From a virus, in the IMG/VR virus record IMGVR_UViG_3300006059_000005, positions 1 to 42,213 of that record: a stretch of 42,213 nucleotides of DNA. One strand, given 5' to 3'. The notes beneath the pieces are model-generated. The model was not told the origin of the DNA and ran no database searches. It worked only from the letters and a program-made list of their open reading frames with translations. Numbering within the stretch: the first letter of the stretch is position 1; each line of letters starts with the position of its first letter. The position numbers and the translations under genes were made by a program. Shown piece after piece: positions 1,638 to 27,531 of the stretch.

Positions 1638-1865
1638 TTAGATAAACAACTTCTTTGGCTTGATGGCCTCGTGGCAATCGCCAAAGCCCTTGGCGTAAGC
1701 CGTGGCTAAGGCGCGGCCTATGATTTTTCTCACCGCATCGCGGAATGGTTCGTTATTATCCATTTCTTCGCACGCAGTGCACAGTTGATCCGTAAATTCT
1801 TTTTGGCGCTCGTTTGCGAAGCCGTTGCAAAGTGTGTGCATTCGCTTTAGTTCGTCTTTGTTCAT
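1638..1865 (-). CDS. Small hypothetical protein (75 aa)
   Basis: The ATG at 1865 overlaps the TGA of the gene upstream (ATGA) and has GGGAG 8 bases upstream. A helical, charged protein beginning MNKDELKRMHTLC, with four cysteines (C13, C29, C32, C64) and a C-terminal amphipathic helix. The CTAC pair could bind metal, but no family is recognised. Membership of the leftward operon is clear from the spacing; function unknown. Confidence 0.7.
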   Translation of the reverse strand: MNKDELKRMHTLCNGFANERQKEFTDQLCTACEEMDNNEPFRDAVRKIIGRALATAYAKGFGDCHEAIKPKKLFI

Positions 1866-2092
1866 CGCTTGACTCCCGTAATTGCTACCACTTTTTTGCT
1901 GCGCTCGACTTGATCGGCCAGAAGTAGACGCAGAGATTTATTTTCCTCTATTAAGGACATGATTCTAAGTTTTAAGTCTGAGATCGTACACTCGCGCATG
2001 TCGGTGTGATCATCGACGCAAATAGGGCAAATCCTAGCTTGGATATTTATTGTTGGCTCGAAATCAACATCGTGAATGCCGCTATTGTTCAT
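1862..2092 (-). CDS. Small protein with CPIC motif and leucine-rich coiled coil (76 aa); first gene of leftward operon
   Basis: Start at 2092 is chosen over the longer frame because a GGGGTAAGG ribosome site precedes it and the longer form would run into the terminator hairpin. A CPIC motif (residues 22-25) with His29 and Cys35 nearby suggests a small zinc site. Residues 37-65 (LKLRIMSLIEENKSLRLLL) look like a short leucine-zipper coiled coil, so a dimeric DNA-binding or adaptor protein is possible. It is the first gene after the intergenic region and so probably among the earliest expressed. Confidence 0.7.
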   Translation of the reverse strand: MNNSGIHDVDFEPTINIQARICPICVDDHTDMRECTISDLKLRIMSLIEENKSLRLLLADQVERSKKVVAITGVKR

Positions 2093-2140: not shown

Positions 2141-2184
2141 GATAAAAATTGGGGCCTGCAACGGGATGAATCGCTCAGGCCCCC
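2141..2184 (-). terminator. Intrinsic terminator (leftward)
   Basis: Read leftward, GGGGCCTG (2176-2183) pairs perfectly with CAGGCCCC (2151-2158) across a 17-base loop, and the stem is followed by AATTTTTATC (2141-2150). It has the form of a Rho-independent terminator. No protein gene ends here on the minus strand, so it should end a non-coding transcript coming from about 2338. Confidence 0.65.
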
Positions 2185-2338
2185 AAACTCACGTTTGTCC
2201 GGCACGGGTTAGGCCCGGAAGTTTATTTGTAGCGTATCGCGGTGTGCGGTGGAAGGATTAAAAATCCTGGCCCATAGGTCAACCATGACCTTGAACCCCC
2301 GTCCGTAGTAGACAGACCAGGATGCGTCATCGACGCCC
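2143..2338 (-). ncRNA. Candidate structured small RNA (about 196 nt)
   Basis: The interval is bounded by a promoter-like pair (2345-2373) and an intrinsic terminator (2141-2184), both leftward, and holds no convincing protein gene. The RNA would contain GCGUC-GAU-GACGC, a long-range 7-bp pairing AUCCUGG/CCAGGAU enclosing a CUGUC/GACGG hairpin and the hairpin AGGUCA-UGGU-UGACCU, then CGGG-CCUAA-CCCG and CAAAC-GUGA-GUUUG with a GNRA-type tetraloop, then the terminator stem. No known family is recognised. Most of these stems are symmetric, so the orientation rests on the terminator U tract and the promoter. Confidence 0.5.
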
Positions 2339-2344
2339 GTCTAT

Positions 2345-2373
2345 AGTTTATTGACCGGATTGATTTTGGGCAA
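2345..2373 (-). promoter_or_regulatory. Candidate promoter for the structured small RNA
   Basis: On the minus strand TTGCCC (2368-2373) and TAAACT (2345-2350) are separated by exactly 17 bases, a reasonable sigma70-type pair. Transcription would start near 2338, at the foot of the first hairpin of the RNA candidate. It overlaps the leader of the rightward primase gene, so the two could interfere. Confidence 0.4.
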
Positions 2374-2380
2374 GTACGGT
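2351..2380 (+). promoter_or_regulatory. Weak candidate promoter for the primase-helicase gene
   Basis: TTGACC (2351-2356) is followed after 18 bases by TACGGT (2375-2380). The -35 is good and the -10 poor. It lies just upstream of the chosen start at 2402 and overlaps the opposing candidate promoter, so the leader would be very short. No better rightward promoter is visible between 2184 and 2402. Confidence 0.25.
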
Positions 2381-2401: not shown

Positions 2402-4411
2402 ATGGGGATTTTTTCTGATCATGTCCGCAGATATTTTGAATTTGGCTTAACTACCATTCCATGTCGCGACAAGCGGCCGGTGTTAGGTCGCAATTGGGAG
2501 CGCTGGTGTGATGAGCCGATCACCGCTGCGAATGTCGATGACTGGGAAAGGCGCTTTCCTGACGTTAACCAAATCGGACTCCCCGCTGGCAAATCAACCG
2601 GGCTCGTTCACTTCGATTTCGATTACAAATTTGATGAGCGCAAGTGTACGATTTCTGAAGCCGAGTTTCGCAAAGATTTGAAGGTTATCGAGCGCTCTAT
2701 TCTAGCGCTGTTACCGGCTTCCCAGTCAGGCAAGGTCGGCGGCAAAGGCTGGACGAAAATTTTTAAACTCCACGGCGATATGTCTAATGTTCAATGCGAC
2801 CGCCATGGACTTCGTTTGTTTGATTTCTTGGCCAAACACAAACAGACCATTATTCCCCCTAGTTTTTATTCCGACGATAAAACTTACCGGTGGCTCGGCG
2901 ATCCAATCGAGGAAGTTTATAAGGATTTGCCGGTAATCACGATGGATATCATCGAGGAAATCCGTCTGGTTTGTGGGTCAACTTCGGGTTTTGACTTTAC
3001 AGCTTCGGGAAGGCATGGCCTACTGTTTAAATGGCTACTCGACTGCGTTCGGATCGAACCGGACAACCGCAAATTGGCTGGCAAATTATGGGAGCGCGAC
3101 AAGCGCACCAATATTGCCTCGCCGTATCTAACTGACCCCAAACATTTTAGTTCGCGCGATCCGGAAGTGAATGCTGTGAAGTGGATCGAGCGCGTTCGTA
3201 AATTTGTGGGTGAGGTTAAAGTTGGGGCGGTGTCGTCGTATGGCTGGGATTACTTTTTTGAGAATAGTTTTTCTGAGTGTCGGAAGGACATTATTTCTAA
3301 AAAAGTATTTTTTAGGAAGTCTGTGGGGAGTGAATGGGAGCTCATGGACGGAGTTGAGGGAGTTTTGCGGTCCTACGCTGGGAGTCGCGGTTTGTTTCCG
3401 GCTCGGACTGTTGATGAATTGGAGCGGTGGAGTTTTGAAAAAAGCGATTGTGATTTTCTCTGTGATTTGCCTGTATGGGACGGCGTTGATCGCGTTGGCG
3501 CTTTTGGCAGGAGTGTTCACTCTGATGTATTTACTGGCGACGAGGTCGCTGACATTTTTCGCCATTGGGGCGCTGGGATTTTCAGGCGCGTTCGCTCGGC
3601 TGATATCCAGAACAGGTGCGTCATTCTTAAGGGTCCACAGGGCATTGGCAAAGACTATTTGGTCAGGGCTATGCTTCGTGACTTCAAGCCGTATTACGAG
3701 TCGACAACAATGCCGGGGACTCAAAAGGACGCCCTTGAGATAGTCGCTCGCTTGCTGGTCGTCCATATCGAGGAGTTTGACCAGACCAAGAATATGGACG
3801 TGGCGTTTCTTAAATCACTGATCACCCAGCCTTCGGCATTTTTCCGAGAGTCATATGGGGCGGCGCCTTCGCAACGCGTTACTAGGCCGTCGTTTATTTC
3901 CACCGCCAATGTCGATGACATTTTGCGGGACCCGACCGGAAACCGGCGGTTTATCGTGGTGCCGGTTACTAAGGTTGATTGGACCTATCCGCTTGATCAG
4001 TCCATACAGGTTTTGGCTCAATGGCGGGCTTACTGTGAGCGCGGGGAGTGGACTGGGCTATCTGTGGAGCTCGAAGAGAAAATTAAGGCGATTGTCGATG
4101 ACTTTACGCCTGATGATCTCAGCGTCAGCATTATGCAGATGTACCGCGTTATATTCCGCCAAAAAATTGTGGGAAATGTGATCGGACATTTGGGCGGTGA
4201 AGAGATGATTGGCGCACTTTCTGAGATCGCAAAAGCCATGCAATGCGGAATTCGCAAAGTGCAGAGTACGATGAAGGGAGCCGGAGTGTGTCATCGTACA
4301 TCGAGTGGTATTAGGTACTTTGCGTCAAAGGATGACTGTGAGCGTTACCGCGCTGGTAATGAGAAGTCTAAAAAAATGGACAAGAAAACCGCCGCTGATG
4401 TAGCATTGTAG
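2402..4411 (+). CDS. Bifunctional primase-polymerase / VirE-family helicase (669 aa)
   Basis: N-terminal Prim-Pol domain (residues 1 to about 175): the catalytic DFD at residues 72-74, a GKGWTKIF stretch and IIPPSFYSDDKTYRWLG, which fits the third PrimPol motif. C-terminal VirE/D5-type ATPase (about 340-560): Walker A GPQGIGKD (411-418), Walker B VVHIEEFD (453-460), sensor ISTAN and arginine motif TGNRRF (512-517). It should synthesise primers and unwind DNA at the phage origin; no replicative polymerase gene is present, so host polymerase is probably recruited. A TTG at 2351 would add 17 residues, but ATG 2402 has a GGGGG site 5-6 bases upstream. The candidate origin lies directly downstream. 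Confidence 0.92.
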   Translation: MGIFSDHVRRYFEFGLTTIPCRDKRPVLGRNWERWCDEPITAANVDDWERRFPDVNQIGLPAGKSTGLVHFDFDYKFDERKCTISEAEFRKDLKVIERSILALLPASQSGKVGGKGWTKIFKLHGDMSNVQCDRHGLRLFDFLAKHKQTIIPPSFYSDDKTYRWLGDPIEEVYKDLPVITMDIIEEIRLVCGSTSGFDFTASGRHGLLFKWLLDCVRIEPDNRKLAGKLWERDKRTNIASPYLTDPKHFSSRDPEVNAVKWIERVRKFVGEVKVGAVSSYGWDYFFENSFSECRKDIISKKVFFRKSVGSEWELMDGVEGVLRSYAGSRGLFPARTVDELERWSFEKSDCDFLCDLPVWDGVDRVGAFGRSVHSDVFTGDEVADIFRHWGAGIFRRVRSADIQNRCVILKGPQGIGKDYLVRAMLRDFKPYYESTTMPGTQKDALEIVARLLVVHIEEFDQTKNMDVAFLKSLITQPSAFFRESYGAAPSQRVTRPSFISTANVDDILRDPTGNRRFIVVPVTKVDWTYPLDQSIQVLAQWRAYCERGEWTGLSVELEEKIKAIVDDFTPDDLSVSIMQMYRVIFRQKIVGNVIGHLGGEEMIGALSEIAKAMQCGIRKVQSTMKGAGVCHRTSSGIRYFASKDDCERYRAGNEKSKKMDKKTAADVAL

Positions 4412-4451
4412 TTTTTATGTCGCCATGCGGTAAGTATTCGTTACTAAGATT

Positions 4452-4595
4452 GAATGTAAGATGAATGTAGGAATGTAGGATATTTAAGAAGAATTTTCTA
4501 AATTTTATTTTTTTCTCTTTTTCTTCTTTTAAAGGCAAAAACGTTTAAAATTTAAAATGTTGAAAAAGATCCTACATACCCTACATCTCCTACAT
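4452..4595. repeat. Inverted TGTAGG iterons flanking an AT-rich tract: candidate replication origin
   Basis: Three copies of GAATGTA(A/G)G lie at 4452, 4463 and 4471 on the plus strand, and three copies of CCTACAT (the same word inverted) at 4571, 4580 and 4589. Between them about 85 bases are almost pure A/T, including a pyrimidine-rich stretch (about 4499-4530) and TTTAAAATTTAAAA. Iterons, an easily melted tract and the adjacent primase-helicase gene fit an origin. The repeats could instead be operators for the gene at 4619. Confidence 0.55.
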
Positions 4596-4618
4596 TGACA
4601 CTGCGTCATGAGGTTTTG

Positions 4619-4960
4619 ATGAAACGCGTAAAAGTTGAGAAAACGGTGGAACAAATCAAGATCGAGCGGCTCATTAACGCGCATGGTAAATTGTATTCTG
4701 AGCTCGCAGAAAATGAGTGCATTATTATGCGGCTCGAAGGCCAACTTGAAGTGGCGCAGAGACGCGGTGATGCACCAGACAGAATCAAACCACGGGTGAT
4801 CAATGCACTATTGATGAAATGCGGCGAAATCCGAACTTCCATGGAGACCACGGTTAAGGCCATCGAGCGTCTCACTGGCACCCAGGCTCCGGAATTTGCG
4901 GTCCCAGTCCATGAAGAGCGAGACGTCACTCCTATTCAACAATGCTTCCTACTGACATGA
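4619..4960 (+). CDS. Small helical protein (113 aa), unknown
   Basis: ATG 4619 is preferred over an upstream TTG at 4595 because GAGG lies 5 bases before it; the TTG would fall inside the last iteron. The sequence is charged and helical, with a probable coiled coil at residues 5-40, and ends KAIERLTGTQAPEF followed by an acidic tail. The end of the helix resembles small terminase-like and DNA-binding phage proteins, but a better TerS candidate is next to TerL. Its place beside the iterons suggests an accessory replication role (inference). Confidence 0.75.
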   Translation: MKRVKVEKTVEQIKIERLINAHGKLYSELAENECIIMRLEGQLEVAQRRGDAPDRIKPRVINALLMKCGEIRTSMETTVKAIERLTGTQAPEFAVPVHEERDVTPIQQCFLLT

Positions 4961-5167
4961 CCACACGTTCCAAACGTGTGAAAAGGGTCCGCAATTTATG
5001 AGTTGGACCGCGGCCTCGAACAGTCCGTAATACGCGGCCGGGAGCTTGGTCGGATGCCCGCATGCACACACGGTGAGGATGTAAATTGCGTTGAGGATTG
5101 CGAAAAGGACTAGGCTACCGCGCGTGAATCGCCGAATATAGGACCATGGCTGATAAGAAACCAGCAC
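4949..5167 (-). CDS. Possible small membrane protein (72 aa), GTG start
   Basis: The minus frame here reads like a real protein in its last 60 residues: a basic RRFTRG stretch, a clear membrane helix (SLVLFAILNAIYILTVCACG) and a compact Cys/Trp-rich tail. The only usable start is a GTG at 5165-5167 with no visible ribosome site; further upstream the frame is antisense to other genes. It would overlap the start of the rightward gene at 5146 by 22 bases. One of the two is probably wrong, or they are divergent with overlapping 5' ends. Confidence 0.35.
   Translation of the reverse strand: MLVSYQPWSYIRRFTRGSLVLFAILNAIYILTVCACGHPTKLPAAYYGLFEAAVQLINCGPFSHVWNVWSCQ
4962..4980. repeat. Perfect 8-bp inverted repeat after the replication gene
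   Basis: CACACGTT and AACGTGTG are separated by CCA. The hairpin begins 2 bases after the stop at 4960. There is no T-run on the plus side, so it is not a standard terminator; it could stabilise the mRNA end, act as an operator, or end transcription weakly in both directions. Confidence 0.5.
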
Positions 5168-5436
5168 CCGGTATTTGGGACCGCGTTCTACAATCTCTCT
5201 CTCAACCGCTCTATGGCTCGGCCCAGAATGACTCTGAGGCTTCGCAAAACCTTGAGTCGCATCTAAACCCCGCGCCGTCCTCGACGAGCTCTGGCGCGTC
5301 TCAGGTTTACATGGCAAAACAGCGTGCGGCTGACGCCGCGTTTCGCCGGCGGTATAGCACTCCGCCACCGCCGCCAGCCGATGACTCGCCGGTCGATGCG
5401 AACGGCTATTCGCGCTATTCCGGCTCAGGCTCTTAG
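5146..5436 (+). CDS. Small hydrophilic protein with Pro/Ser-rich C-terminus (96 aa)
   Basis: ATG 5146 is the first start after an in-frame TGA at 5125. The protein starts MADKKPAPGIWDRVLQSL, followed by Ser/Asn-rich sequence, a basic helix (AKQRAADAAFRRRY), a Pro tract and a Ser/Gly/Tyr end. Such composition is common in small phage virion or accessory proteins. AGGA lies only 2 bases before the ATG. It is isolated between leftward blocks, so it may have its own promoter or be read from the primase transcript. Function unknown. Confidence 0.55.
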   Translation: MADKKPAPGIWDRVLQSLSQPLYGSAQNDSEASQNLESHLNPAPSSTSSGASQVYMAKQRAADAAFRRRYSTPPPPPADDSPVDANGYSRYSGSGS

Positions 5437-5439
5437 CGC

Positions 5440-5727
5440 TCATCGGATATTCCCCCTGCCTTCGGTGGCCCGGTAAATCAAATCTTTGGCGCGCTCCCAG
5501 ACGACATGCTGTTGAGAATTGAGGTTCCCGAGTGTCCCACACAAGATCCACATTTCCGAGAGCATGTCGACTAGCTCTGGCGCCGCTGCGATGAGACCCG
5601 CGTCTGCGGCGTTGGCTTTTGGCACCAGCGCGACTGTCATGTCGAGTGGCTTGCTGTCAGCGGCCCTAATTCTTAGGTGCTGTGGGTCGGCCTCATCAAT
5701 TACCCACGGTCCTTTGGTGTAGCTCAT
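5440..5727 (-). CDS. Conserved small phage protein of unknown function (95 aa)
   Basis: Begins MSYTKGPWVIDEADP and contains ANAADAGLIAAAPELVDML, a pattern I recognise from many phage and prophage proteins (YTxGPW near the start, NAxLIAAAPELLEAL in the middle), none with an assigned function. The start overlaps the stop of the lipoprotein gene upstream by 4 bases. It is the last gene of the leftward accessory block and faces the rightward gene ending at 5436. Confidence 0.85.
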   Translation of the reverse strand: MSYTKGPWVIDEADPQHLRIRAADSKPLDMTVALVPKANAADAGLIAAAPELVDMLSEMWILCGTLGNLNSQQHVVWERAKDLIYRATEGRGNIR

Positions 5728-6353
5728 TCGCTCACCAATTCAAACGGCCCGTTGATCGTTAGCGGATCGCTCGCGTCAAAAGCGGTCGCGGCGATCTCCG
5801 TGACATGCGTCACGGTGCCAAGCGATGCTGAGCACGCGCCCGACTGATACTGCGACTGCGCGCTCACGGTGTTGGCGTAGCCCACGATTCTCAGCGCTTG
5901 AACGCTGTTGTCCGGCCACGCTTGGCTATTTGCCATCACTTTATTCTTGAGCACCACGTCCGGCGGCACGGTATAGGCGTGACCAGTGCAGTTAGGCCCG
6001 TCGAAATAGGTACGCGTGACGGCAGTAATGGTCCCATTCGCGTCGTAACTCAAAATATTATGGCTCGTCGTATTGAGCACAATCTGCGTCGCGGTGAACG
6101 TGCCGATGTAAAGCAGATTTTCCATGCTGTAGCCGTTAATGTCTTTTATGTGGACCGCAGGGCGCCCCATCGTGGCCTGACTTCCGTCGGAGCACTGGAC
6201 TTGGGCTTTGCCCTCGGAGTCTTTACTCGCTGAGCACCCTTGCGCCTTAAGCATACTAGTCGGCGGTGCTGTCACAGGCGCGGATGCCTCGGAGCCGATC
6301 TCTTTACAACCGGTTAGCGCGACTAAACCAATTATGTATATTGCGTGTCTCAT
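5724..6353 (-). CDS. Predicted lipoprotein (209 aa)
   Basis: ATG 6353 has GGGAG 6 bases upstream and shares one base with the previous stop (TAATG); a longer frame exists but would run through the preceding gene. The N-terminus is a lipoprotein signal: short basic MRH, hydrophobic AIYIIGLVA and lipobox LTGC, with Cys at about residue 16. The mature part has several Cys (possible disulphides) and predicted beta structure, with no named domain. It should be attached to a membrane of the host envelope. As a virus-encoded lipoprotein beside a recombinase it may be a cargo gene, e.g. for superinfection exclusion (inference). Confidence 0.8.
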   Translation of the reverse strand: MRHAIYIIGLVALTGCKEIGSEASAPVTAPPTSMLKAQGCSASKDSEGKAQVQCSDGSQATMGRPAVHIKDINGYSMENLLYIGTFTATQIVLNTTSHNILSYDANGTITAVTRTYFDGPNCTGHAYTVPPDVVLKNKVMANSQAWPDNSVQALRIVGYANTVSAQSQYQSGACSASLGTVTHVTEIAATAFDASDPLTINGPFELVSE

Positions 6354-6670
6354 TAGTGACTCCCGAAGCATTGGCGTATTTGTTGGAGTCTGCCATCGAC
6401 GCCCCATGAATTAGTCATCGCGCAATCTGTGCGGTTGTCCGGCGTCCCGTCCGCGTAATAAAAACCCGTGCGACTTGGCTCGAGGCCCGCACCATTTGAC
6501 GATGCGCCAGCAACGCCATTGTTTACATTGACTACAACCGGTGGCGCTGATTGCACCATTACCGGCGGTCTATCGGCGAGCTTTAGCGCGAGTTCGCGGT
6601 CCAGCGTCGTCGTCTCGTGCGCGCAAGCTGACAATGCCAGCGTGGCCAGTACAAATAAAATCCGTTTCAT
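6353..6670 (-). CDS. Predicted lipoprotein (105 aa)
   Basis: ATG 6670 lies 6 bases after GGGAGG; an ATG at 6676 is too close to that site. The N-terminus MKRILFVLATLALSAC is a textbook lipoprotein signal with lipobox LSAC (Cys16). The mature part contains a Pro/Val/Asn-rich stretch and a tail with two Cys. It resembles short phage lipoproteins often called Rz1-like or exclusion proteins, but no family is certain. The next lipoprotein gene overlaps its stop by one base, so the two are probably made together. Confidence 0.8.
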   Translation of the reverse strand: MKRILFVLATLALSACAHETTTLDRELALKLADRPPVMVQSAPPVVVNVNNGVAGASSNGAGLEPSRTGFYYADGTPDNRTDCAMTNSWGVDGRLQQIRQCFGSH

Positions 6671-6687
6671 TTTCATCCTCCCGTTAT

Positions 6688-6705
6688 GCGCGGCTCGCGC
6701 CGCGC
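6688..6705. repeat. GC-rich perfect hairpin before the lipoprotein genes
   Basis: GCGCGGC and GCCGCGC flank a TCGC loop, giving a very stable hairpin about 18 bases upstream of the lipoprotein start. On the minus strand an A/T-rich run lies before, not after, the stem, so it is not an intrinsic terminator for the recombinase gene. It may control translation or be a protein site; it could also be part of attP, which cannot be tested here. Confidence 0.45.
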
Positions 6706-6752
6706 GGTTAAAAAACAAACAAGAATCATTTAGGGCGCGCGCGTGGTTAGTC

Positions 6753-7265
6753 TCATCGCACCCTCATCAACTTCCTAAACTCGCTCGCATTGTAAACCCG
6801 ATCCGCGTAAACCATTGTCGACGTTATCGACTTGTGGCCTAACGCGTATTTCACGAATCGAATATCACGCGTGCGCTCGTAAGCCCGAATCGCGAACGTA
6901 TGCCTCAGCGAGTGAAACGGCTTGTTCGCGGGCTTGTACAGGTTCCATATTTCGACAAGCCGTGGATACGATATCGGAAACGGCTTTGCCGGACTCACGG
7001 CTTTGAGCCGCGCGAGCGCGGTGCGGACTAACTTTGGCACCACGCACTCGCGATCATTGCCACCTTTTACCGACCTAAGCCATACAGTCCCCGTCGCTTC
7101 ATTAATGTCGCGCCAGTCAAGGGCCAATAGTTCACTCGCGCGCGCACCGGTATGAAGAGCCGTGAGTATCATGGCAGTGTCCCGCGCGTGGTCCGCGATA
7201 GACCGTTCGAGGTTCGCCTCAAGCGCCGCGCGCTCTTCAGGTGATAAAAATTTACGGCTGTCCAT
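6753..7265 (-). CDS. int: Minimal tyrosine recombinase / integrase (170 aa)
   Basis: Catalytic-domain-only tyrosine recombinase. The whole active site is visible: Arg42 in TGARASEL, Lys67 in SVKGGN, His118-x-x-Arg121 in HSLRH, His144 in LGHKS and the nucleophile Tyr153 in TMVYAD. At 170 residues it lacks the usual N-terminal arm-binding and core-binding domains, like FimB/FimE-sized enzymes. It should cut and rejoin DNA for integration, dimer resolution or inversion. The ATG overlaps the preceding gene by 14 bases. No attP core could be recognised nearby without a host sequence. Confidence 0.9.
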   Translation of the reverse strand: MDSRKFLSPEERAALEANLERSIADHARDTAMILTALHTGARASELLALDWRDINEATGTVWLRSVKGGNDRECVVPKLVRTALARLKAVSPAKPFPISYPRLVEIWNLYKPANKPFHSLRHTFAIRAYERTRDIRFVKYALGHKSITSTMVYADRVYNASEFRKLMRVR

Positions 7266-7476
7266 TGATCACCGTCTCAAGTATGAGGTTCACCCACGCC
7301 TCGAACGCCTCGACCGGCATCTTGGGTGTTTGCGGGAGCTCGGCATAGTGATCGGAGTCGACGCGGATTATCACCCGGCACTCAATGAGCGCCTTGAGAA
7401 CCGCGTCGCCGGTGAGGCCATGGCGACGACCCCATCGGTGATATAGGTTTGAGATTGGGCGCACTCGGGGTTTCAC
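7252..7476 (-). CDS. Small hypothetical protein upstream of the integrase (74 aa), GTG start
   Basis: GTG at 7474-7476 shares a base with the TAG of the upstream gene and follows GGTGGG at 4 bases; a GTG at 7488 would add four residues but has a worse site. It begins with a basic stretch (KPRVRPISNLYHRWGRRHG) that could bind DNA, then a compact alpha/beta part. Its stop lies inside the integrase gene. Size and position would fit an excisionase or integrase partner, although no excisionase motif is recognised. Confidence 0.65.
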   Translation of the reverse strand: MKPRVRPISNLYHRWGRRHGLTGDAVLKALIECRVIIRVDSDHYAELPQTPKMPVEAFEAWVNLILETVINGQP

Positions 7477-7904
7477 TAGTCCCACCACACCCTAAACATA
7501 CTATGTTTAGGACAGAATAGAACCTCGTCCGCGAGTGATCTAAAAGCGGTGTCTCGACTAAGCCATATATTATGCTTAGGTCTGATGTAGACGCATACCG
7601 AGGACTCTCGCGCGACATAGTAGTCGGCATCGTCGCCGAATGTCTCAATGATTTTCACTAGTGAAACCGCCGGATCGAACCCGTTATACCCGTCGGGGAC
7701 AGCGCTCGACATAAGTTTGGTTAATTCAGTCGCCGTCAACGCGTGTTTGCAAAAATAGTTTAGGTTGCGTGGGCCTTTGTGGTGATTGCAGTCCGAATAG
7801 GCCGCGAGAACCTCATCGACGATTGCGAGTTTGATGCCGACTTTTGCTCGGTGAGCGGCTCTACACGGCCCGTCGGAGTAAACCGGTCCATTAGAGTTAC
7901 TCAT
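7476..7904 (-). CDS. Hypothetical protein (142 aa)
   Basis: ATG 7904 overlaps the stop of the upstream gene by 8 bases. The protein begins with a polar stretch, then GPCRAAHRAKVG, a His/Cys-containing middle (DCNHHKGPRNLNYFC) and a C-terminal part ending FCPKHSMFRVWWD. Several Cys and His residues leave metal binding possible, but the spacing does not match HNH or another family I know. It belongs to the recombinase block. Confidence 0.7.
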   Translation of the reverse strand: MSNSNGPVYSDGPCRAAHRAKVGIKLAIVDEVLAAYSDCNHHKGPRNLNYFCKHALTATELTKLMSSAVPDGYNGFDPAVSLVKIIETFGDDADYYVARESSVCVYIRPKHNIWLSRDTAFRSLADEVLFCPKHSMFRVWWD

Positions 7905-8388
7905 TGTCCACCGCCTTAATAGCGCGCTCTATTTTTTTGAGAATCTGAATCTGTTCACGCTTAGGACATGATTCAGCCCAATCTTTAGAGCGGAATTGAC
8001 GGGCAACGCATGCCTTTAGTTTTTTGAGAATTAGCGTCTCGGTCTCGGCGCTAATATAAGTAACGCCGTCCTGAATAGCCTCGGCCTCGAACATCTCGGC
8101 ACCGGTGGGTGATTCAAAGTCATAGGCATCGACGCCGACGTCGTGAATGATCCAAGGTTGCGGGTACCCGCAAATCATTGCTTTAGGGCCCTTGTCGAAT
8201 CGCAAACTCACGTTGCACGACTCGCCATTGACTTCGAGATAACAGTGGACGCTCGTCGCGCCTCGCATGATCACCGAGAGAGTTGAGGCCTTAAGCGGTT
8301 TGATTTTCAGCGCGCGTGATTCCTTTGCGGAAACGATTTTGATGCCGAGCTCGGCGGCGGTATTAAATAGGTCTTGTTTACGGCTCAC
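7897..8388 (-). CDS. Hypothetical protein (163 aa), first gene of the recombinase block, GTG start
   Basis: GTG 8386-8388 sits 6 bases after a full AAGGAG, which decides the start. A mixed alpha/beta protein with a basic N-terminus (MSRKQDLFNTAAELGIKIV), an acidic middle and a Lys-rich C-terminal helix (KKLKACVARQFRSKDW). No family recognised. It is the first gene after the 421-base intergenic region and probably expressed from the promoter at 8474-8502; a 5-bp hairpin (8407-8421) lies just upstream of the ribosome site and could tune translation. Confidence 0.7.
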   Translation of the reverse strand: MSRKQDLFNTAAELGIKIVSAKESRALKIKPLKASTLSVIMRGATSVHCYLEVNGESCNVSLRFDKGPKAMICGYPQPWIIHDVGVDAYDFESPTGAEMFEAEAIQDGVTYISAETETLILKKLKACVARQFRSKDWAESCPKREQIQILKKIERAIKAVDNE

Positions 8389-8473
8389 TGTTCACTCCTT
8401 AGTTAGGCTCGAGGTACGAGCGGTTAGTTAATTAAGTATCGACGCGATGCACAAAAAACTCAAGGGCAAAAGT

Positions 8474-8502
8474 AAACTAATTTGATTATTTTTTGAGGTC
8501 AA
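8474..8502 (-). promoter_or_regulatory. Candidate promoter for the recombinase/lipoprotein block
   Basis: Leftward TTGACC (8497-8502), 17 bases, then TAGTTT (8474-8479). It would start a transcript near 8467 with a leader of about 80 bases before the GTG at 8388. The leader holds the hairpin GCTCG-AGGTA-CGAGC at 8407-8421 next to the Shine-Dalgarno site. Confidence 0.45.
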
Positions 8503-8809
8503 CCGGATTGAATCGGCGTCTATATATATGGTTTAGACACCTCGCGTAAGCGAGCCGGCGCGCGCTCGCGAACCAGAGGTTCTCTATAAAACCTATGGTA
8601 TCAACTCATTGAATTGATTATAGAATACTAGACATGACTTTGGCCGGCCCAAGAATCGGACCCCGTTCTCAATTTGAATCGTATAATTTTCACGGGGGGT
8701 ATGGGGTCTCGTCGACCCCGAGACCGATTCACCCGCCCCTCAAAAAAATAAAAAAATCAAGCCTATCAACCGATTGATAACGCAGCGTATTCCATATCAA
8801 ATCGAATGT
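8503..8809. promoter_or_regulatory. Divergent intergenic control region with clustered hairpins
   Basis: No gene is visible. Three adjoining inverted repeats fill 8541-8582: CTCGC-GTAA-GCGAG, GCGAGC-8 nt-GCTCGC (sharing GCGAG with the first, so the two are mutually exclusive) and GAACC-AGA-GGTTC. A further stem GGTCTCG-7 nt-CGAGACC lies at 8705-8725. A TATAAT stands at 8682-8687 facing the late genes, but without a good -35. This is where the late-operon promoter must lie; an unusual or activator-dependent promoter is likely. The A-rich run at about 8741-8758 is not followed by a clear ribosome site. Confidence 0.5.
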
Positions 8810-25274: not shown

Positions 25275-27531
25275 CACTCAAAGCCCCTATGAGATTAACG
25301 ATTTTTCGGGCGGCATGACCGATCAGGTGTTTGAGCAAGTCCTTAATCGTCATGCGCTCCTCGATAATTTCCTGATCAATGAGGACAAAAAGCCCTACAT
25401 GCGGCCGGGCTCAGTCATCGATGATACGGCTAATGGTGAAGCACCTTCTGGCGCGAGGATTTCAGCGCTCATTAATTACGCCAATAGCGATAAGCTCTTT
25501 TATCAGTCACTCCGCTATATTTATTTCCGCGATCCAAGTGTGTTTCAAGAGCTCATGGGGCCAACCGGTAACTCGGCTTATTCAACCGGTACGCCAAACG
25601 CGGTGCCAAGCTTTGCTCAGTGGAACCGTCATCTTTACACGACCAATGATCAATACGCGCGTCCGATGAAAATTTTCAAAGATGGCTCTGGCAATTACCA
25701 AATCCGGAGCTCTGGACTACCCGCCTTGGCAACGCCTCCGGTAGTGACGGCCGGCGCGGCTGACACTCAAAATTTTCTTTATGCATTTTTATTCCGCGTC
25801 GATTACCAGGTCTTTAATCTTAATTATGAGACCATAGGCCCGGTGACTGAAGTGGGGGTTAGCAATACAGCGGCACCTGACGTCACGCCGATTGCGATTT
25901 CTGGCATCCCAGTACTGGCTAACGGTATGAGTGACAATTGGGACGTAGCCAATGTTTTTGTTGATATTTACCGCACCGTCAACGATGGGACATTTTTCCA
26001 AAAAGTGGGCTCGGTACCTAACGGCACGACGACATTCACCGATAACGTGTCAGATATCACGCTGGAAAATACTGGCATCCCACTCTACACAAATGACGGC
26101 ACCGTAGACTATGACCCTCCGCCTTTGCATAAATACGTTCACGTCGTAAATAATACTGCATATTATGCAGGAATACAGGACCTCGACGGTGAGTCGCCTT
26201 ACAAGATTCGGCAAAGCGTACCGGGCGTTCCGGACACGGCTCCTTTGGATTTCGAGGTTTCAGTCGACGATGAACTTCAGGGGATGAACAGCGTCAACTA
26301 TATGCCCATCGCTCTGTGCAAAAAATATATTTACCGTATTGATCAATCCTTTGATCAATTCGGTCGCGGCAACATGATCCCGACTAGGATTTCAGACACC
26401 GCCGGGTGCATTGCAAATAATTCTTGTGTGCAGGCTGAAATGGGCCTTTTTTGGCTCGGTAATGAGGGCGTGTGGTGGACCGATGGGTATCAAACGATGA
26501 AAATATCTGGCGGCAACAACGATTTTTACAAATCAATTATCGCCAACACGACTCAATTGAATCGCTGCACTGGAAGGTTTTATGAAAAAGAGCGACTCGT
26601 TATTTGGACTATCCAGCGCAACGCCGACAGCAAGGATAACGATTCTTTTTTAGTGCTCCATTTAAAATTCGGCGTCAGTGCCGCGTCGACATTCACCACA
26701 TGGAGTGGCGCGAGTTTTCGTCCATCGGCAATTGAGATTTTTAACAAGCAAATCTATCGCGGCGATATTCAGGCCTACACTTTTAAGCATGACTCGAGTT
26801 ACACGAGCGATCGCAAAATCAATCTTTACCTCAATCCGGTTAACTGGACGCCAGAGACTATAATTTGGACCATTCAGACGATTCACTATAATTTCGGTGG
26901 CACCTTTTTTAGAAAGATGCCGACACGCGTTTTACTGACCGCCAAAAATCAAGGTAACACCTCGATTCAAATCACCGCGATCAACGATGACGGTAGGGCC
27001 TCCAGGCAGTGTAAACAAATTAGGGTGAGAGGCGACTTTGTTTGGGACGCCGATGATTTTGTGTGGCGCGTTTCGCCCTTTGTATGGCGAGGGTCTGGAC
27101 TCATTGAACAATGGCGCAGATTCCCAGCGAAGCCGCTTAGACTCTCATATCTTCAGTTGGTGATCACCAACGCATATTCCGACATTACAAATTCGGATAC
27201 GCTAGGGCAGGCCGCATTTGACGCTACTGCCAAAACCGCTACTCTGAGCGGTACCAATTACTGGCCCATTTACTCGGTTGATTATTATCTCTATTCTGAC
27301 GCTGACAATTATCAAACCGGGTATTTGGTCGACGCCCTTAATTCAGCCGGCGTAGTCCATCTTTTCGATCCGCTCAATACTTTGCCATCGGGAACCCACA
27401 AATGGGTCATGCGCGGATACAAGAAAGACGAATCTCTCTATTTGCTTGGATTTAATATCCACTGGTCAAATGTCAGTCAGTCGCAACAGGCTTACAATTC
27501 ATCGGCCGCGAGCACGGGGGAAAATGCGTAA
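25264..27531 (+). CDS. Tail nozzle / tail tubular protein B-like (755 aa)
   Basis: Long beta-rich protein with the opening EINDFSGGMTDQVFEQVLNRHALLDNFLINEDKKPYMRPG, the usual start of podovirus nozzle (T7 gp12/P22 gp10-like) proteins: a net of short strands with DNFxxxxxGxxxxRPG. Many aromatic and Asp/Asn residues follow, in keeping with a beta-propeller. It would form the distal tail tube under the adaptor. Overlaps the preceding gene by 11 bases and is followed by the adaptor gene. No tape measure is encoded, in line with a short tail. Confidence 0.82.
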   Translation: MAASTQSPYEINDFSGGMTDQVFEQVLNRHALLDNFLINEDKKPYMRPGSVIDDTANGEAPSGARISALINYANSDKLFYQSLRYIYFRDPSVFQELMGPTGNSAYSTGTPNAVPSFAQWNRHLYTTNDQYARPMKIFKDGSGNYQIRSSGLPALATPPVVTAGAADTQNFLYAFLFRVDYQVFNLNYETIGPVTEVGVSNTAAPDVTPIAISGIPVLANGMSDNWDVANVFVDIYRTVNDGTFFQKVGSVPNGTTTFTDNVSDITLENTGIPLYTNDGTVDYDPPPLHKYVHVVNNTAYYAGIQDLDGESPYKIRQSVPGVPDTAPLDFEVSVDDELQGMNSVNYMPIALCKKYIYRIDQSFDQFGRGNMIPTRISDTAGCIANNSCVQAEMGLFWLGNEGVWWTDGYQTMKISGGNNDFYKSIIANTTQLNRCTGRFYEKERLVIWTIQRNADSKDNDSFLVLHLKFGVSAASTFTTWSGASFRPSAIEIFNKQIYRGDIQAYTFKHDSSYTSDRKINLYLNPVNWTPETIIWTIQTIHYNFGGTFFRKMPTRVLLTAKNQGNTSIQITAINDDGRASRQCKQIRVRGDFVWDADDFVWRVSPFVWRGSGLIEQWRRFPAKPLRLSYLQLVITNAYSDITNSDTLGQAAFDATAKTATLSGTNYWPIYSVDYYLYSDADNYQTGYLVDALNSAGVVHLFDPLNTLPSGTHKWVMRGYKKDESLYLLGFNIHWSNVSQSQQAYNSSAASTGENA

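Follow-up and report, generated by a model that had tools for sequence, protein, structure and literature searches.

A predicted structured RNA at the head of a phage early operon, with its promoter interleaved with that of the primase gene

The window, a 42,213-bp IMG/VR virus record (IMGVR_UViG_3300006059_000005, positions 1 to 42,213), carries a structured non-coding element on its minus strand, in the divergent region between a leftward early operon and a primase-helicase gene. The element is real, and two related phages have a structured non-coding counterpart, in agreement with the original prediction of a phage non-coding RNA in this control region, which is right in outline. What is new, judging from the predicted signals, is that all three phages interleave the promoter of the RNA with that of the rightward primase gene, and that the RNA heads a leftward operon of ~10 kb. 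The RNA is likely to regulate early genes of the phage. What the sequence itself shows comprises promoter-like sites and their interleaving, the fold, the terminator, synteny and conservation across three phages. The features of the region are:

1862 to 2092, minus strand: 76-aa gene that opens the leftward early operon, with GGGGTAAGG in front of it; no family match
2143 to 2338, minus strand: structured non-coding RNA, ~196 nt, its 5′ end (~7 nt past the -10 box) and its 3′ end (in the T run) both inferred from the sequence
2143 to 2183, minus strand: predicted intrinsic terminator, 8-bp stem GGGGCCUG/CAGGCCCC with 4 inner bp, followed by AATTTTTA
2184 to 2197, minus strand: hairpin H4, CAAAC-GUGA-GUUUG, abutting both H3 and the terminator
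2198 to 2219, minus strand: hairpin H3, UCCGGGC-CUAACCC-GUGCCGGA
2220 to 2258, minus strand: linker, largely unpaired
2276 to 2317, minus strand: 5′ domain, with hairpins GUCUGU/ACGGAC (2317-2301) and AGGUCA-UGGU-UGACCU (2291-2276)
2345 to 2373, minus strand: putative leftward promoter TTGCCC-17-TAAACT, -35 at 2373-2368 and -10 at 2350-2345
2351 to 2380, plus strand: putative promoter of the primase gene (rightward), TTGACC-18-TACGGT, interlocked with the leftward promoter
2402 to 4411, plus strand: divergent primase-helicase gene (Prim-Pol and VapE-like domains)

The minus-strand fold of the element (-79.2 kcal/mol) has a z-score of -3.35 against dinucleotide shuffles, with 1 of 200 shuffles as good. 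In a genome-wide scan of 200-nt segments on both strands, with a regression-based correction for composition, the minus-strand segment that begins at 2151 takes rank 6 among 1682. The AGGUCA-UGGU-UGACCU hairpin and the GUGA tetraloop hairpin, both named in the original prediction, form with pair probabilities above 0.92 and 0.96, respectively, and the proposed GC-rich stem before the T run (2183-2151) with a probability above 0.99. A 7-bp long-range pairing had also been proposed. The two segments, AUCCUGG and CCAGGAU, are indeed complementary, but the helix has a probability of ~0 and forcing it costs 5 kcal/mol. A plain consensus scanner at default thresholds lists neither the promoter nor the terminator; the single-sequence evidence is therefore moderate, and the case for the element is carried by comparative evidence. 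The strongest fold outlier of the scan (ranks 1 and 2) lies elsewhere, at 4401-4650 (minus), where the primase gene ends and immediately beyond.

The relatives, G001 (44,552 bp, primase 58% identical) and G002 (42,897 bp, primase 43% identical), were reached in IMG/VR via the portal protein and the primase. Rightward structural genes, leftward early genes and a divergent primase are arranged in the same order in all three phages. The leftward early genes, which include those for SSB, an AAA ATPase and a PDDEXK-like nuclease, form an operon of ~10 kb starting at the RNA and running down to SSB and its neighbours (25.9 to 15.3 kb in G001), the leftmost genes being poorly conserved. This extent is read from G001 and G002, whose contigs are unbroken there; the contig ends of the window cut the operon. 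At the nucleotide level no named phage matches the window. The presumed terminase and portal, named from position and size after PHROGs gave no match, had no tblastn hit in 50,697 phage records. For most of the large structural genes (9327-33428 in the window) PHROGs likewise gave no match. By these searches, the phages appear to belong to a group without a named member in that collection.

Directly upstream of the primase, G001 and G002 each have a non-coding stretch of equal length with a minus-strand fold and a terminator at its end. The fold z-scores against shuffles are -3.35 in the window, -4.82 in G001 and -3.85 in G002; in the genome-wide scans the copies of G001 and G002 come 6th of 1776 and only 46th of 1708, respectively. 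Two further regions, G001:40701-40950 and G002:27501-27800, are strong fold outliers on both strands. The element folds better on the minus than on the plus strand in all three phages (-76.7, -70.2 and -60.9 vs -70.5, -55.6 and -41.2 for the window, G001 and G002), with 5, 8 and 10 G-U pairs on the minus strand and a T run confined to it, which argues for an RNA made from this strand and not a DNA hairpin element. No tRNA or tmRNA was detected. The longest ORF inside the RNA has 35 aa, and a coding explanation was rejected since the ORFs at this place are short, different in each of the three phages and without good ribosome sites.

Most stem bases differ among the three phages, yet the hairpin-hairpin-terminator arrangement of the 3′ end is kept. 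In each phage H3, with a C-rich loop, is followed by an abutting H4 and, after 0-6 nt, by the terminator. The H3 loop reads CUAACCC in the window and UAACCC in G001, with a partial likeness in G002 (UUCCC). Short collinear words are common to pairs of phages, namely CTACGGACGG in the window and G002, TGTCTTTTG in the linkers of G001 and G002, and CTAACCCG in the window and G001. The 5′ domains differ among the three phages; that of the window contains CUACGGACGG, which G002 has at an almost equal distance from the promoter.

We built a covariance model from the 3′ domains of G001 and G002 alone, on an alignment registered by hand with N placeholders. Run unfiltered on both strands of the window, the model has its best match at 2142-2217 (minus), with 17.0 bits and an E-value of 0.042; the second-best match reaches 8.7 bits, and the best in a control of 93 kb from other phages of the group 13.6 bits. 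A genome search with default filters missed the window copy. Covariation is present in the alignment fitted by the model, where 58 of 59 cells are paired (98%) and 15 of the 22 pairs are changed on both sides, counts that are overstated and to some extent circular, as the hairpins had been folded one by one before they were aligned. The position of the model match is fairer and stronger evidence than these counts. A descriptor of the hairpin-hairpin-terminator plan gave 22 matches in 1.64 Mb of phage DNA (redundancy included), the G001 and G002 elements among them. Taken over its three members, the RNA appears to have kept its structure through an almost complete turnover of its sequence.

The original prediction could not assign the RNA to a known family, and Rfam 15 agrees, with no match in the window at the gathering threshold, none at E ≤ 10 in 2080-2420, and noise only on the elements of G001 and G002. 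As far as Rfam goes, the element is an undescribed RNA family, of a familiar kind (a phage early-leader RNA or sRNA). 6S RNA (RF00013), which has a long closing stem and a large central bubble, was rejected, as its model has no match at E ≤ 10 and the fold here is a row of separate hairpins. CsrA sponges of the CsrB/RsmZ type have many GGA motifs in hairpin loops; a CsrA sponge or site was rejected as well, with GGA occurring 3, 1 and 1 times and the sole common ACGGA paired in the window and exposed in G001 and G002.

Scans of IMG/VR with the primase, the portal, the terminase and two RNA patterns found G001 and G002 only, four of the five matches of the first RNA pattern being due to chance. 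Scans of GTDB genomes gave no relative, and RNA models run on 33 and 24 related records gave no further copy. The record G030 (= L018) has the same primase type with only ~100 bp upstream of it and is without the element, whose range seems limited to a part of the sub-group that has this primase. Another record, L016 (primase 43% identical), shows a different hairpin-hairpin-terminator in the corresponding divergent region (L016:3780-3900, minus), with a 12-bp terminator stem and without a 5′ domain; it gives no covariance-model match and has a poor overall fold (z -1.35).

The leftward promoter-like pair named in the original prediction is found on the minus strand and is conserved in the three phages as TTGCCC-17-TAAACT, TTGTGA-17-TAAACT and TTGTAA-17-TAAGCT, with both the -10 word GTCAATAARCT and the spacing kept. 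The pattern TTG-N15-GTCAATAARCT occurs once per genome in the window, G001 and G002, at the same place, and is absent from G030. Opposed to it in all three phages is a putative rightward promoter (TTGACC-18-TACGGT, TTGACT-18-TACGGT and TTGACT-18-TAGTTT), conserved as TTGACY-18-TANNNT. The two are interleaved, the rightward -35 abutting the leftward -10 and the rightward -10 sitting 1 bp from the leftward -35. These two predicted, overlaid and opposite promoters explain the conserved word RGTCAATAARCT: TAARCT, the left -10, directly adjoins the complement of TTGACY, the right -35. Scored with an approximate sigma-70 matrix, the left promoter of the window ranks 61 of 84,374 positions; over the three phages the left promoters rank 61, 66 and 760 and the right ones 110, 102 and 230 among ~85,000 positions.

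The word TCAATCCGGTYRA occurs exactly at 2351-2363 and 8499-8511 (minus), both in divergent promoter regions, and also at 26831-26843 (plus); with up to 2 mismatches there are 13 copies vs 4.1 expected. At 8499 it has TCAA-N5-TTGA symmetry and is a candidate operator. The surrounding 8389-8773, which separates leftward genes (4949-8388) from the rightward terminase operon, is another divergent control region. It holds a leftward promoter-like TTGACC-17-TAGTTT, and its minus strand, too, has a strong fold (segment at 8551, rank 11 of 1682).

The reading we prefer, to which we give an even chance, is that of an early regulatory RNA with its own terminator, an attenuating leader or sRNA that would set the expression of the early operon. 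Transcription itself, attenuation or read-through, promoter exclusion and any target are what we infer from the sequence features. The early leftward promoter would give rise to the folded ~196-nt RNA, ending at its own intrinsic terminator ahead of the ~10-kb operon. Most transcripts would stop there and yield a stable small RNA, while a minority would read through into the early operon, so that the RNA would act as a regulatory leader or sRNA for early gene expression. The RNA may be a discrete stand-alone sRNA or the terminated leader of the following operon; the sequence data fit both. With the promoters interlocked, one polymerase at a time would use the region, and the output of the RNA and the early operon would therefore be inverse to that of the primase. 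With so compact a promoter pair, the phage would have to choose between early operon and primase. The simplest terminator/antiterminator attenuator was rejected: in a crude test, an upstream antiterminator partner for the 5′ arm of the terminator was not above shuffles in the three phages, 88, 33 and 114 of 200 shuffles doing as well. A bolder version, which we consider doubtful, is a new phage RNA family acting on transcription, in which a structured early leader, tied to the primase promoter by the interleaving, would gate polymerase at the head of the operon by an undescribed mechanism (antitermination or sRNA-driven attenuation).

A stand-alone, trans-acting sRNA that pairs with a host or phage target or binds a protein of either, with the operon transcribed from its own promoter past the terminator, is a possible alternative, somewhat unlikely on present evidence. 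The RNA has a complete promoter and terminator of its own, and in all three phages a weaker promoter-like TTGCAA/TTGCCT lies 3-5 nt beyond the terminator, so the operon may have independent transcription. G001 and G002 expose an ACGGAY loop and have the linker word TGTCTTTTG in common; against this, ACGGAC is paired in the predicted fold of the window and the linker sequences differ. No target was found, and in a crude duplex test pairing of the RNA with the downstream 130 nt, including the ribosome-binding site, did not exceed shuffles in any of the three phages.

Processive antitermination of the put type is improbable. The put RNA of phage HK022 consists of two adjacent stem-loops in the early-operon leader, ahead of a terminator, and putL and putR lie near the start of both early transcripts. 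By the same principle, the abutting H3 and H4 would modify their own polymerase to pass this and later terminators. In all three phages, two abutting hairpins of conserved structure do immediately precede the terminator, within the leader of a long early operon. In contrast to put, the window has one copy and none for the rightward transcript, and the hairpins lie ~120-150 nt from the start.

Still less probable is a simple insulating terminator, with incidental upstream hairpins, that keeps leftward transcription low. The terminator is the most stable part of the RNA and the 5′ domains differ among the three phages, as this explanation would have it, but H3 and H4 are conserved with changed bases, a common loop and collinear common words, and such a terminator would have no use for a conserved promoter of its own. 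A DNA element, for instance an origin of replication next to the primase, in which the inverted repeats would act in single- or double-stranded DNA, is very improbable: the region adjoins the primase gene and has inverted repeats, but in all three phages the G-U pairs and the T run are on one strand only, the strand with the conserved promoter.

An early regulatory RNA that terminates at the head of an operon has parallels in other phages. In phage P4, the untranslated leader of the replication operon (seqA / CI RNA / seqC) exerts control by transcription termination, the CI RNA pairing with seqA and seqC to terminate, which is used for lysogeny (PMC4825925). The present RNA would likewise be an untranslated leader of a phage operon, with predicted termination at its end; unlike in P4, no complementary seqA/seqC-like elements were seen among the downstream and terminator pairings examined. 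IsrK of the Salmonella prophage Gifsy-1 has its own promoter and a Rho-independent terminator. Some of its transcripts continue past the terminator, so that a short sRNA and an mRNA isoform are both made, and IsrK activates translation of the downstream ORF by trans pairing (PMC4825925). At the level of sequence, the element described here has the same combination of own promoter, terminator and downstream genes in the same direction. It differs from IsrK in phage type and position and in a pairing with the downstream message that, in the crude test, does not exceed shuffles; its read-through is a prediction. The covariance model and the exact elements (H3, H4, terminator and promoter pair) are now given. 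By analogy, IsrK would be the nearest documented precedent, and structured RNAs at phage early promoters (IsrK, P4 CI and put) have each revealed a separate route of transcription control.
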